This document shows positions 53,180-57,623 of a stretch of 64,000 nt of DNA, piece after piece (positions within the stretch are counted from its first letter, which is position 1; every line of letters begins with the position of its first letter). Both the position numbers and the translations under genes were made by a program. Source of the DNA: Nibricoccus aquaticus. GTDB lineage: Bacteria > Verrucomicrobiota > Verrucomicrobiia > Opitutales > Opitutaceae. The stretch spans positions 4,171,501-4,235,500 of the forward strand of contig NZ_CP023344.1 in assembly GCF_002310495.1 (NCBI RefSeq). Direction: 5' to 3'. The notes under the pieces are model-generated. The model did not search any database, was not told the DNA's origin, and saw only the letters and a program-made list of their open reading frames with translations.

Positions 53180-53214
53180 GCGAGTTGATCACCAGACAAA
53201 GTTTCTTAAACGCG

Positions 53215-53245
53215 AAACGGCCGGAATTTTTTCCGGCCGTTTTTT
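53215..53245 (+). terminator. Intrinsic terminator after lpdA
   Basis: Perfect 12-base stem AAACGGCCGGAA (53215-53226) / TTCCGGCCGTTT (53231-53242) with a TTTT loop and a continuing T-run to 53245. It marks the left boundary of the AT-richer island. Confidence 0.93.
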
Positions 53246-53270
53246 GTGCTTCGAGGTGTGGGCGATAAGT

Positions 53271-53381
53271 GAGCTAGGAGTCGCTAGCTCGATATAGCCG
53301 TTATCGGATTGGTCTAATGCTATTTGCAGCTCGACCGTCTGCCGGGGTCGATCTAAGTCCTATCAGGAGGAGAACAGCATA
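53271..53381 (+). promoter_or_regulatory. Leader of the RelA/SpoT-type gene: hairpin, strong Shine-Dalgarno and an in-frame AUA
   Basis: A hairpin GAGCTAG-GAGTCG-CTAGCTC (53271-53290) lies at the island's left side. Further on, a perfect AGGAGG (53365-53370) is spaced 8 bases from ATA (53379-53381), which is in frame with the downstream gene; the first ATG is 27 bases later with no ribosome binding site of its own. The AUA could be a weak start limiting expression or a mutated ATG. Confidence 0.5.
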
Positions 53382-53405
53382 AGACCAAAACGTTCTGTTA
53401 GATTT

Positions 53406-54467
53406 ATGACTGACGACTTGGATAGCGTAATAGCGGCATACCGTAAAAATCTTCCTCTCTATGCATCCTTTGCGAACAAGGTGCGCGATTTGGTAGATGA
53501 GCTGCTAGTCATAAATAAAACCAAATTTCATTTTGTAGAAGCTCGGGCTAAGTCGCCAGAAAGTCTGACGGAAAAGCTGCAGCGTCCTGGTAAGTCATAT
53601 TCAAATCCGCTCAGCGACATACCTGACCTAGTTGGAGTACGTGTAGTTTTGTACTACTCGGACGACGTCGCAAAAATAGGCAAAATGCTGAAAGGGGAGT
53701 TTGAGCTGATAGGAGAAGAGTTAGGTCATCAGCCCAAAGGTTTGTCTGCAGATCGATTTGGGTATCTCTCACTTCATTGCGTACTGCGCCTTGCTACCCG
53801 CCGTTCTAAATTATCTGAGTGGAGTAGATATAAAGGACTGCACTTCGAGCTGCAGCTACGCACAGTTCTTCAGCATTCTTGGGCGGCGGTTTCTCATGCT
53901 CTGCAGTACAAGAAAGAAGGCGATGTCCCGCACGAGCTACGTAGGAAACTCCATAGATTAGCTGGCCTATTTGAGTTGGCTGATGAGGAGTTTCTGGAAC
54001 TCAGGGATCTTGCGGCGGAGAAGGCACGAGAAGCCTCCGTTGCGGTAAAAAAAGGAGTCGATGAAATCGGGTTAGATATATCTTCGCTCCAAGCCTTTGT
54101 TAGGCAATGGAAGCCATTGAAAGATGTGCTGAACGAGCTTGAAGCCAGAGGTATAAATCCCGCGGATCTAGAAGACGTCAGGGATGAAGAGGAGCCGCAT
54201 AATTACCTCGGCGATATCGTGGAGCATTGTGAGCGGATTGGCATCAGAACAATTAGCGAATTGAAGAAAATGCTATCTAAGGATTTCACCAGTTTTGTAG
54301 AATATGTCGCCGAACCGCGGTGGTGTATGGGGGTAGAATTCGTGCTGTATCTGTTGTTGATTGCTTCCAGACCGAAGGATTTCTCAGTTGAAATTTTAAC
54401 TCATGCGGGCTTTCACGAAAATATCGCTAAGCGCGTCCTCAATGCTGCGGCTAAAGCACAAACGTGA
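53406..54467 (+). CDS. RelA/SpoT-type nucleotidyltransferase (small alarmone synthetase-like) with an extra C-terminal domain
   Basis: 353 residues. Residues 15-175 form a Rel synthetase domain: KSPESLTEKL, DIPDLVGVRVVLYYSDDV (71-88, Mg-site Asp74 and Arg79), GYLSLH (119-124, G-loop with the guanine-stacking Tyr), FELQLRT (147-153) and WAAVSHALQYK. It could make (p)ppGpp or, as in toxSAS enzymes, pyrophosphorylate tRNA. There is no HD hydrolase, TGS or ACT domain. The C-terminal 170 residues are helical and unrecognised. The gene is clearly richer in A and T than all neighbours and sits alone between a terminator and the end of the RND operon, suggesting acquisition. An alternative start at AUA 53379 has the better ribosome binding site. 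Confidence 0.85.
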   Translation: MTDDLDSVIAAYRKNLPLYASFANKVRDLVDELLVINKTKFHFVEARAKSPESLTEKLQRPGKSYSNPLSDIPDLVGVRVVLYYSDDVAKIGKMLKGEFELIGEELGHQPKGLSADRFGYLSLHCVLRLATRRSKLSEWSRYKGLHFELQLRTVLQHSWAAVSHALQYKKEGDVPHELRRKLHRLAGLFELADEEFLELRDLAAEKAREASVAVKKGVDEIGLDISSLQAFVRQWKPLKDVLNELEARGINPADLEDVRDEEEPHNYLGDIVEHCERIGIRTISELKKMLSKDFTSFVEYVAEPRWCMGVEFVLYLLLIASRPKDFSVEILTHAGFHENIAKRVLNAAAKAQT

Positions 54468-54476
54468 TTGGATTCA

Positions 54477-57400
54477 TTAGGCACGAGTTACCGTTGGTTT
54501 TGCGACTAGCACTGTAGGCGAGTGGGCGGGATCAGTGTGAGTCGCGGTGCGGCGGAAGAGGCCTTTTAAACGCTCCATGTAGATGTAGAGGACGGGCGTC
54601 AGGTAGAGCGTGAGGAGTTGGGAGACGACGAGGCCGCCGACGACGGCTAGGCCGAGTGGGCGGCGGGATTCGGCGCCGGCGCCGATGCCGAGGGCGATGG
54701 GAAGTGCGCCAGCCAAGGCGGCGAAGGTGGTCATCATGATCGGGCGGAAGCGGGCGACGCAGGCTTCGTAGATGACTTTTTCGGGGGAGAAGTTGGCGCC
54801 TTGTTCGCGTTCGGCGGCGAGGGCGAAGTCGATCATCATGATGGCGTTCTTTTTCACGATGCCGATGAGCAGGATGAGACCGACGTAGCCCATGATGTTG
54901 AGCTCTTCGCCGAAGAGCCAGAGCGTGAGCAGCGCGCCGAGGCCGGCGGCGGGCAGACCGGAGAGAATCGTGAGCGGGTGGACGAAGTCTTCGTAGAGAA
55001 TGCCGAGCACGATATAGATGACGAAGATGGCGAGGATGAGGAGCAGGCCGATGTTACTCATCGATTGCTGGAAGGCCTGGGCGGTGCCTTGCAGTGAATA
55101 GGAAATCGAGGGCGGCAGGCTTTCGGCGGCGCGGGCGATGGCGGCGGTGGCATCACCGAGCGCGGCGCCGGGCTTGAGGTTGAATGAGTAGGTGACGGCG
55201 GCGGATTGACCGATGTGGCCGACGGTGAGCGGGCCGACCTTGGGCTTCACGGTGACGACGGTGTCGAGCGAAACGAGTTCGCCGGTCGAGGTGCGCAGGT
55301 GGACGGAGCGCAGCGAGGCGGGATCGAAGCCGAGCGCGGGGTCGATCTCGAGGATGACGTAGTATTGCGCGTTGGAGGTGTAGATCGTGGAGGCCTGGCG
55401 CGTGCCGAAGGCGCTGTAGAGCGCGCTCTCGATGGCGGCGGGTGAAATGCCGAGGGCGCCGGCGCGGTCGCGGTTGATCTCCACGCTGAGCTGCGGGCTG
55501 GTGATCTGGAGATCGGAGTTGAGGTCGGTGAGCTCGGGGAGTTCGCGGAGTTTTTTCTCAAAGTCGCCGGCGGTGGCGTAGAGGCTGTCGAGATCGGAGC
55601 CGGAGATGGCGACCTGGTAGAGCGCTTTCGACGCGATGCCGCCGATGCGGATCGTGGGGGGAACTTGTGGATACGCGCGGATGCCGACGACTTTGGAGAG
55701 GCTGGCGCGGAGTTCGTTGGCGACGATGAATGCGGAGACGCGTTCGCTGCGGTCTTTGAGGCGGACATTCATCGAGCCGGTGTTGGTGCCGGTGCTGCGG
55801 CCGCCGCCGATGCTGGACTGGACGGCGTCGACCGCGGGATGGTCTTTCACGATGCGCGCGGCCTGATCGAGGTAGGTGCGCATGGCGGTGACGGAGGTGC
55901 TCTGGGCGGCCTCGATGTTGACGTTTAGCATGCCCTGGTCGTCGGTCGGGATGAAACCCTGGCGGAGCTGCGTGAAGAGGACGCCGGTGAGGACGAGCGA
56001 GACGACGGCGGAACCGATCGTGATCAGACGGTGGCGCATGAAAAACTTCAGCGAGCGCTCGTAGGTGTGGAGCATACCGTCGAACATTTTTTCGCTGAAG
56101 CGGTAGATGCGGCCGTGTTTTTGGGCGTGCGCGTGCGGTTTCAGGAAGCGGCTGCAGAGCATCGGCGTGAGCGTGAGCGAGACGATGCCGGAGACGATGA
56201 TCGACGCGGTGATCGTGATGGCGAACTCGTGGAGAAGCATGCCGAGGACGCCGCTCATGAACATGAGCGGGATGAACACGGCGATGAGCGAGAGCGTCAT
56301 GGAGAGAATCGTGAATCCGATCTCCTTTGAACCGATAAGGGCGGCCTCGCGGACGCTTTTGCCCATCTCGATGTGACGGACGATATTTTCGAGCATCACG
56401 ATGGCGTCATCGACCACGAAGCCGACGGAGAGCGTGAGCGCGAGGAGCGAGAAATTATCGAGGGTGAAGTCGAAGAAGTGCATCACCACGAATGTGCCGA
56501 GCAGCGCGAGCGGGATGGCGATGCTGGGGATGACGGTGGCGGTGGCGGAGCGCAGGAAGAGGAAGATGACGAGGATGACGAGTGCGATGGAGAGCAGGAG
56601 CGTGAACTCGACGTCGTGGACGGATTCGCGGACGGCCTGCGAACCGTCGCGGAGGATCTCGAGTTTGATGGCGGGTGGCAGTTCCGCCTCGAATTTCGGG
56701 AGCGCGGCGCGGATGGCGTCGACGACGGCGACGGTGTTGGAGCCGGGCTGTTTCAAGATACCCAGCATGATGGTCGGGCGCGCGCCGTCGGCGGTGTAGA
56801 CCATCGCGGAGACGCGGGTGTTTTGGATGCTGTCGATGACCTTGGCGATCTGGCCGAGGCGGACGGGCGTGCCGTCGCGCCAGGCGACGATGATCTGAGA
56901 AAATTCTTTGGCCTTCGCGAGCTGGCCTGTGGCGGTGATCGTGTAGGTCTTGGCAGCGCCGTCGACCTGACCGGTGGGTTGATTGACGTTTTGGGCGGCG
57001 AGGGCGGACTGGACCTGATCGATGGTGATGCCGCGGGCGGCGAGCTGGCGCGGATCGAACTGGACGCGGACGGCGTACTTTTGGGAGCCGTACACATTCA
57101 CATCGGCCACGCCGGTGATCATGGAGATCTGCTGTGCGAGGATGTTCTCCGCGTAGTCATTCACCTCGGAGAGCTGCAGCGTCGGCGAGCTCATAGTGAT
57201 GAAGAGAATCGGGCGGTCGGACGGATTGGATTTCCGGAAAGAGGGCGGCGACGTCATCTCGTTCGGCAGCTGACGTTGCGCGGCGGAGAGTGCGGTCTGC
57301 ACATCCTGGGCGGCGCTATCGATGTTTCGATCGAGGGAGAATTGCAGCGTGATGCTGGTGCTGCCGAGTGAGCTGGTGGAGCTCATCGAATCGATGCCGG

Positions 57401-57623
57401 AGATGGTGGAGAGCTGGCTCTCGATCGGCGTGGCGACGGCGGTGGCCATCGTTTCGGGCGAGGCGCCGGGGAGGGAGGCGTTGATGCTGATGGTCGGGAA
57501 CTCGACGTTGGGCATGTCGCTCACCGGAAGGATGCGGAAGGAGATGACGCCAAAGACGACGAGGGCGACGGTGAGCAGCGTGGTCATCACCGGCCGCTTG
57601 ATGCAGAGCTCGGGGAGATTCAT
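54477..57623 (-). CDS. RND multidrug efflux transporter (HAE-1 family)
   Basis: Inner-membrane proton-drug antiporter of 1048 residues, the usual AcrB/MdtB length. N-terminal IKRPVMTTLLTVALVVFGVISF, a TM4 segment GFVVDDAIVMLENIVRH with the paired aspartates of the proton relay, GFIPTDDQGMLNV after TM7, and GIVKKNAIMMIDFA in TM10 are all standard. Sequence flavour is nearer MdtB/MdtC than AcrB. Its ATG overlaps the stop of the adaptor gene. No outer-membrane TolC-like gene is in the window. It ends 9 bases from the convergent RelA/SpoT-type gene. Confidence 0.95.
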   Translation of the reverse strand: MNLPELCIKRPVMTTLLTVALVVFGVISFRILPVSDMPNVEFPTISINASLPGASPETMATAVATPIESQLSTISGIDSMSSTSSLGSTSITLQFSLDRNIDSAAQDVQTALSAAQRQLPNEMTSPPSFRKSNPSDRPILFITMSSPTLQLSEVNDYAENILAQQISMITGVADVNVYGSQKYAVRVQFDPRQLAARGITIDQVQSALAAQNVNQPTGQVDGAAKTYTITATGQLAKAKEFSQIIVAWRDGTPVRLGQIAKVIDSIQNTRVSAMVYTADGARPTIMLGILKQPGSNTVAVVDAIRAALPKFEAELPPAIKLEILRDGSQAVRESVHDVEFTLLLSIALVILVIFLFLRSATATVIPSIAIPLALLGTFVVMHFFDFTLDNFSLLALTLSVGFVVDDAIVMLENIVRHIEMGKSVREAALIGSKEIGFTILSMTLSLIAVFIPLMFMSGVLGMLLHEFAITITASIIVSGIVSLTLTPMLCSRFLKPHAHAQKHGRIYRFSEKMFDGMLHTYERSLKFFMRHRLITIGSAVVSLVLTGVLFTQLRQGFIPTDDQGMLNVNIEAAQSTSVTAMRTYLDQAARIVKDHPAVDAVQSSIGGGRSTGTNTGSMNVRLKDRSERVSAFIVANELRASLSKVVGIRAYPQVPPTIRIGGIASKALYQVAISGSDLDSLYATAGDFEKKLRELPELTDLNSDLQITSPQLSVEINRDRAGALGISPAAIESALYSAFGTRQASTIYTSNAQYYVILEIDPALGFDPASLRSVHLRTSTGELVSLDTVVTVKPKVGPLTVGHIGQSAAVTYSFNLKPGAALGDATAAIARAAESLPPSISYSLQGTAQAFQQSMSNIGLLLILAIFVIYIVLGILYEDFVHPLTILSGLPAAGLGALLTLWLFGEELNIMGYVGLILLIGIVKKNAIMMIDFALAAEREQGANFSPEKVIYEACVARFRPIMMTTFAALAGALPIALGIGAGAESRRPLGLAVVGGLVVSQLLTLYLTPVLYIYMERLKGLFRRTATHTDPAHSPTVLVAKPTVTRA

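Follow-up and report, generated by a model that had tools for sequence, protein, structure and literature searches.

The gene at positions 53406-54467 of the window (the whole 64-kb stretch of DNA that was analysed) is proposed to be a laterally acquired, self-contained growth-arrest gene, which combines effector and sensor in one protein and probably acts against phages; the probability of this reading is estimated at roughly 0.55. The gene encodes an alarmone synthetase-like core with intact active-site residues followed by a second, faster evolving domain, it has spread laterally, and relatives of it are carried as prophage cargo. In the proposed mechanism, the helical C-terminal domain would hold the core in an off-state and sense a trigger, for which a phage product is the likeliest candidate. 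The triggered core would then use ATP as pyrophosphate donor and a guanosine nucleotide as acceptor, yielding (p)ppGpp or one of its close analogues, and growth would stop before the phage cycle is complete, with protection as the presumed outcome. In the window's host, the product would escape clearance by the usual enzyme, since the genome encodes neither another RelA/SpoT protein nor an HD_4 hydrolase. The idea of a single-gene toxin-regulator, which was put forward in a preliminary description of this DNA, is reasonable and gains indirect support.

Gene, borders and lateral origin

The gene and its borders comprise the following features (window coordinates):

53214-53243, plus strand: intrinsic terminator of the upstream gene lpdA, forming the left-hand boundary of the AT-rich island (stem of 13 pairs, loop of 4 bases, T run)
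53260-53405, plus strand: AT-rich leader, in which an AGGAGG resembling a Shine-Dalgarno sequence lies at 53365-53370 (sequence, composition)
53406-54467, plus strand: alarmone synthetase-like gene, 353 amino acids, full-length member of PHROG 9640 (PHROG profile match, AlphaFold2 model)
54477-57623, minus strand: RND-type efflux transporter gene, whose 3' end forms the right border and which lies outside the system (list of open reading frames)

The gene is solitary, with the lpdA terminator on one side and, 10 bases downstream, the 3' end of the minus-strand RND-type gene on the other. Its GC content is 47.0% (46% at third codon positions), compared with 61.9% for the window; the next-lowest value among window open reading frames of at least 150 amino acids is 57.8%, and every one of the 1062-base segments with the lowest GC content in the 64 kb falls on this gene. 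The earlier claims of an AT-rich island unlike its surroundings, and of its borders at the lpdA terminator and the end of the RND gene, are borne out by these data. The start of the gene had been placed at 53250 and is corrected to 53406, where the open reading frame list places the 353-amino-acid frame. The strong AGGAGG lies about 35 bases 5' of this ATG, which is beyond the usual Shine-Dalgarno spacing, and at the usual spacing from it only an in-frame ATA (53379) is available. The homologues favour the ATG at 53406 as the probable start. A scan of the leader (53260-53405) for sigma-70-type promoters gave no match. Insertion at a tRNA gene or by way of repeats was rejected, as no tRNA genes are present within the 64-kb window and no flanking repeats framing the island were found. 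No phage association of the window copy itself was seen.

In the host's family, lpdA is present in 38 of 41 genomes, and at none of the 29 lpdA loci inspected there does the RND gene or the alarmone synthetase-like gene follow lpdA. A clean empty site could not be demonstrated in the relatives; the lpdA-RND junction is rearranged, and the ends of the insertion are not definable.

The gene carries the sole RelA_SpoT domain of the complete 4.73-Mb genome, and this domain was found in none of 56 relatives. Of the 387 genomes sampled from the window's phylum, 16 were positive; five of these match PHROG 9640 at 1e-20, and two of the five matches are strong. Atkinson et al. (2011; PMC3153485) described Planctomycetes, Verrucomicrobia and Chlamydiae without RSH proteins, and the distribution seen here resembles this absence, a parallel that we infer and take as a parallel only. 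Two genomes of the window's phylum (L159 and L164) carry RelA_SpoT in far longer open frames of 889 and 902 codons. An HD_4 hydrolase is absent from the whole genome of the window's host, while control genomes were positive in the same search. Since HD_4 proteins are encoded in each of the 25 hosts of named homologues that were tested, the window's host is unusual in this respect. An Rfam model and a probe pattern for 16S rRNA likewise had no match in its genome, which is listed as complete, probably owing to masking of such sequences.

In a tree of the homologues, the window protein groups with two alphaproteobacterial proteins (99% SH-aLRT), and the phylum labels switch 22 times (minimum 13), a pattern that fits a gene moving laterally but also persisting at the level of clades. 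The gene is real and laterally acquired.

The synthetase core

The following features were assigned to the N-terminal part of the protein:

53406-54017, plus strand: synthetase core, residues 1-204, with a RelQ/RelP-like fold
53544-53585, plus strand: putative ATP (donor) site R47, K49, S53, K57 and R60 (conservation; equivalents of FaRel2 R64, K66, S70, K74 and R77 by motif spacing)
53625-53642, plus strand: D74 (predicted Mg2+ ligand) and R79 (predicted adenine stacking), roles assigned by motif equivalence
53712-53777, plus strand: putative acceptor loop (G-loop) and GYxSxH motif with Y120 and H124 (G119, Y120, S122 and H124 invariant in 87 homologues)
53847-53882, plus strand: E148, Q150 and R152 (ExQxRT motif), H157 and W159 (invariant in 87 homologues)

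The Pfam domain RelA_SpoT (PF04607) was detected on residues 47-172 with an E-value of 1.4e-17 and 64.5 bits, the curated cut-off being 27. An AlphaFold2 model of the whole protein, which was built from 87 homologues, reached a mean pLDDT of 91 and a pTM of 0.85. Residues 1-204 of this model superpose on RelQ (5dec) with a Z-score of 18.5 (2.6 A over 180 residues) and on RelP (6ewz) with 18.1, whereas CapRel and FaRel2 reach 13.2 and 7.5. Sequence profiles rank the relatives of the core in the same order, with 5e-27 to 1e-20 for RelQ/RelP-type proteins, 3e-7 for CapRel and 0.14 for FaRel2; the identity to the RelQ/RelP-type protein 2be3 is 28%. Residues R47, K49, K57, D74, R79, Y120, H124, E148, Q150 and R152 are invariant in the 87 homologues, and S53 is kept in at least 90% of them; the FaRel2 residues to which the donor site was compared are named as active-site residues in PMC11782079. 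Judged from these motifs, the core is proposed to be a catalytically competent RelQ/RelP-like synthetase. The core had been called divergent, which did not hold up: no pyrophosphotransfer residue is missing, and the nearest relatives of known structure are of the RelQ/RelP type. Close kinship to CapRel is not supported. The pairing of the core with no hydrolase, in contrast, was confirmed, since the 353-amino-acid protein has no HD domain, unlike long RSH proteins, and HD_4 is missing genome-wide.

RelQ and RelP (YjbM, YwaC) share all active-site motifs with the window protein, but they are chromosomal enzymes of about 210 amino acids and do not possess its C-terminal domain. The window protein scores 62.7 bits against the NCBIfam model YjbM, which is below the equivalog threshold of 320. 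The likeness of the core to RelQ points to a guanosine product, and (p)ppGpp-specific synthetases can arrest growth when they are active in the cytoplasm (PMC12691689). The same architecture could also serve an anti-phage role with a different product, either tRNA pyrophosphorylated at its CCA end or (p)ppApp. CapRelSJ46, a fused phage-sensing synthetase of similar size (373 amino acids), modifies tRNA (PMC9712102), and the characterised toxic members are adenine-specific (PMC11782079); however, both the profile and the fold comparisons place the core far closer to the guanosine-specific RelQ/RelP enzymes than to CapRel or FaRel2, which makes this alternative unlikely, although it is the one to be taken most seriously. 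An inactive remnant without a present function in the window genome is hardly credible. The window copy is an isolated transfer, and one frameshifted copy in Escherichia coli indicates that losses occur, but the window gene has an intact frame, retains all catalytic residues and gives a confident full-length model.

The C-terminal domain

Three features were assigned to the remainder of the protein:

54018-54464, plus strand: C-terminal domain, residues 205-353, all-helical, proposed regulator or sensor (modelled alone, pLDDT 88.7)
54240-54275, plus strand: GIxTIxxLxxxL, residues 279-290, the most conserved motif of this domain (column counts, 87 homologues)
54300-54323, plus strand: residues 299-306, aligned to the replacement-rich patch of the E. 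coli prophage copies (gapped alignment, equivalence approximate)

The domain is helical throughout in both the full-length and the stand-alone model, as had been predicted, but it comprises about 149 residues instead of about 170. Its type had been called unrecognised, and this assessment stands: a Pfam search returned no family and a PDB sequence search no relative, while searches with the domain model found nothing with Foldseek against the PDB (best E-value 2.7), with VIA-align (best Z-score 3.0) or against BFVD (best E-value 1.1). The domain has no detected relative outside PHROG 9640, a missing match that does not prove a new fold.

A system of similar design is CapRel (CapRelSJ46 and CapRelEbc), a group of fused toxin-antitoxin tRNA pyrophosphokinases, in which the fused C-terminal domain doubles as inhibitor and phage sensor (PMC9712102). 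CapRel is likewise encoded by a single gene of similar size, has an N-terminal synthetase core and a fast-evolving C-terminal domain and is carried by prophages. The tail of CapRel, however, contains a beta-containing pseudo-zinc finger, whereas that of the window protein is modelled as all-helical; CapRel was not among the structural matches of this tail, although a missing match is not proof. The YXXY motif, which is inhibitory in CapRel, is absent from the window protein and occurs in 25 of the 87 homologue tails compared with 17 expected by shuffling (range 9-28); it is not a feature of PHROG 9640. Membership in CapRel was rejected on the basis of the core distance and the missing motif, and the likeness is one of design, not of descent.

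The usual tail is not the only one that can be joined to such a core. A plasmid-encoded homologue of Limnohabitans (479 amino acids; L006:3989-5437), which is adjoined by several toxin-antitoxin genes, has TPR-like repeats at the position of the tail, indicating that other C-terminal modules can replace it.

Distribution and genomic context of the PHROG 9640 family

The window protein matches phrog_9640 with an E-value of 5.7e-69 over residues 6-314 (profile positions 5-318 of 365). All 87 homologues match this family with both the core and the C-terminal domain (best 1.1e-196), and no structural difference separates the family from the window protein. PHROG 9640 is annotated as "unknown function" and is, as far as searched, functionally uncharacterised. 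All 87 homologues also match the PADLOC phage-defence candidate PDC-S33 in the core region; for the window protein, this match covers the core only (profile positions 45-177 of 349) and leaves the tail unmatched. No literature naming PDC-S33 was found.

Alignment-based scans recovered at least 80 loci from named genomes, and viral contigs contributed a further 62; a query with the single protein returned no close viral relatives, and the viral members came from the alignment-based queries. Complete homologues almost all have a length of 340 to 380 amino acids and are distributed over at least 14 phyla, including one archaeon. The AT-rich island recurs across the family, as the GC content of 55 of 77 chromosomal homologues lies under that of the flanks by more than 3 points (median -6.8), with values of 40.5% and 68.2% for the homologue of Brevundimonas and its flanks, respectively. 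Lone homologues are found in a prophage of Mycobacterium abscessus, a phage-plasmid of Bacteroides, a filamentous phage of Vibrio and a plasmid of Klebsiella. The gene is antiparallel to the adjoining phage genes in the elements of Mycobacterium and Bacteroides, and in Klebsiella it is the main cargo gene of the 3.5-kb ColRNAI plasmid NZ_CP058965.1 (L004), where it adjoins the replication genes.

The toxic two-gene synthetases FaRel, FaRel2 and PhRel belong to the pyrophosphotransferase superfamily as well and are partly linked to phages, but they have a separate antitoxin gene, and no such antitoxin gene is conserved beside PHROG 9640 genes. Neither an antitoxin nor a hydrolase gene is located beside the window gene, and no neighbour family recurs more than three times among the 128 nearest neighbours of the chromosomal copies, a scan in which simple open reading frames served as gene calls and no control set was used. 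A separate antitoxin or constant partner was therefore rejected, and the comparison agrees with the proposal of a self-contained single gene. The chromosomal neighbours are mostly ordinary genes. A defence-island context, which had been considered for the homologues, was not found among these 128 neighbours; since only isolated matches, for example to GajB-like, DRT and TOTE proteins, were seen, defence islands around chromosomal copies are not claimed.

A maintenance toxin of plasmids or prophages, i.e., an addiction module with the tail as fused antitoxin and no phage sensing, would fit with the sole cargo of a 3.5-kb plasmid and the lone cargo in prophages. Rapid evolution of the tail would be unexpected for such a module, however, and post-segregational killing is hard to explain with a cis-fused inhibitor, which is inseparable from the toxin and cannot be lost separately; this explanation is thus very improbable.

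Cargo of P2-like prophages in E. coli

A homologue is present in 14 of 5,426 E. coli genomes and is always chromosomal. The three contexts that were read are P2-like prophages, in which the gene lies between genes V and S and is antiparallel to the late operon. In one of the three, the gene is broken by a frameshift. The annotation of the copy in E. coli Res13-Lact-PEB08-01 (L171:9180-10100) gives a partial pseudogene and, separately, an open reading frame, which marks a broken copy. Flanks of the V-S site were matched in 1,565 genomes, a few of them by short stretches, and the homologue occupies the site in 14 only; other inspected V-S sites are empty (L177) or contain one different gene. The differing lone cargo genes are located at L172:1039-2283, L173:1016-1801, L174:1008-1751, L175:747-1532 and L176:1010-1750. 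One cargo ATPase matches the PADLOC candidate PDC-S59 (2.8e-31), and the other cargo genes match nothing. A defence hotspot of P2-like prophages between genes A and Q has been described (PMC9122126), and the V-S junction is a cargo site separate from it.

Evolution of the two halves

Among the homologues, the median pairwise identity is 44% for the core and 16% for the tail, and pairs with cores that are 82% identical can have tails with an identity of only 36%. A comparison of eight distinct E. coli-type sequences revealed ratios of replacement to silent variants of 1:8 in the core and 14:3 in the tail (Fisher p=0.0008). Several replacements of the tail are concentrated in codons 294-316, and two codons carry two hits each. 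As 14:3 comes close to what neutrality would give, relaxed constraint explains the tail as well as diversifying selection does; the counts show a contrast between the halves and not proven positive selection. In evolving far more rapidly than the catalytic core, the C-terminal half behaves like a sensor or regulator, and it is to this extent that its earlier description as a regulator is supported.

Taken as a whole, PHROG 9640 might represent a widespread, uncharacterised class of one-gene phage defence that couples a RelQ-type (p)ppGpp synthetase, as opposed to a toxic enzyme acting on tRNA or ATP, to a new, fast-evolving helical phage sensor and that would cause irreversible growth arrest in a host without RelA/SpoT proteins or a hydrolase; this wider claim is tentative. 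If the anti-phage reading is correct, alarmone synthetases fused to a phage sensor would comprise a second lineage, whose sensor domain is independent and which is found in at least 14 phyla, with prophages, a filamentous phage and small plasmids among its carriers; this lineage would link classic (p)ppGpp-making enzymes to phage defence. The window's host would provide a natural test of (p)ppGpp effects in a lineage without stringent-response enzymes, and with the copies in P2-like prophages of E. coli the idea can be tested directly in laboratory strains.

Strong purifying selection in Exiguobacterium and the chromosomal copies outside defence islands count against the anti-phage reading. 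Unlike the copies on mobile elements, those of Exiguobacterium are chromosomal and syntenic, with dN/dS ratios of about 0.01 in both domains (close pairs). A housekeeping role is likely in this genus because both halves are conserved and the gene order is kept. Homologues thus appear as core genes without a defence context in Exiguobacterium, but not in the family as a whole, which may have both defence and housekeeping uses. A stress-signalling synthetase, with a tail that senses a metabolite or stress, would give the window's host a (p)ppGpp signal that its lineage otherwise lacks. The RelQ-like core, the strongly conserved syntenic Exiguobacterium copies and the chromosomal copies outside defence islands are consistent with this explanation, but the patchy distribution, the occurrence as cargo of prophages, phages and plasmids, the rapid evolution of the tail and a host without a hydrolase to reset the signal argue against it, and it is considered rather improbable for the window gene; a growth-arrest gene probably directed against phages remains the preferred reading. 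The downstream neighbour of the Exiguobacterium copies is also conserved and encodes a protein of about 145 amino acids, which is 67-100% identical among the loci L067, L074, L077, L079, L080, L083, L087 and L090.
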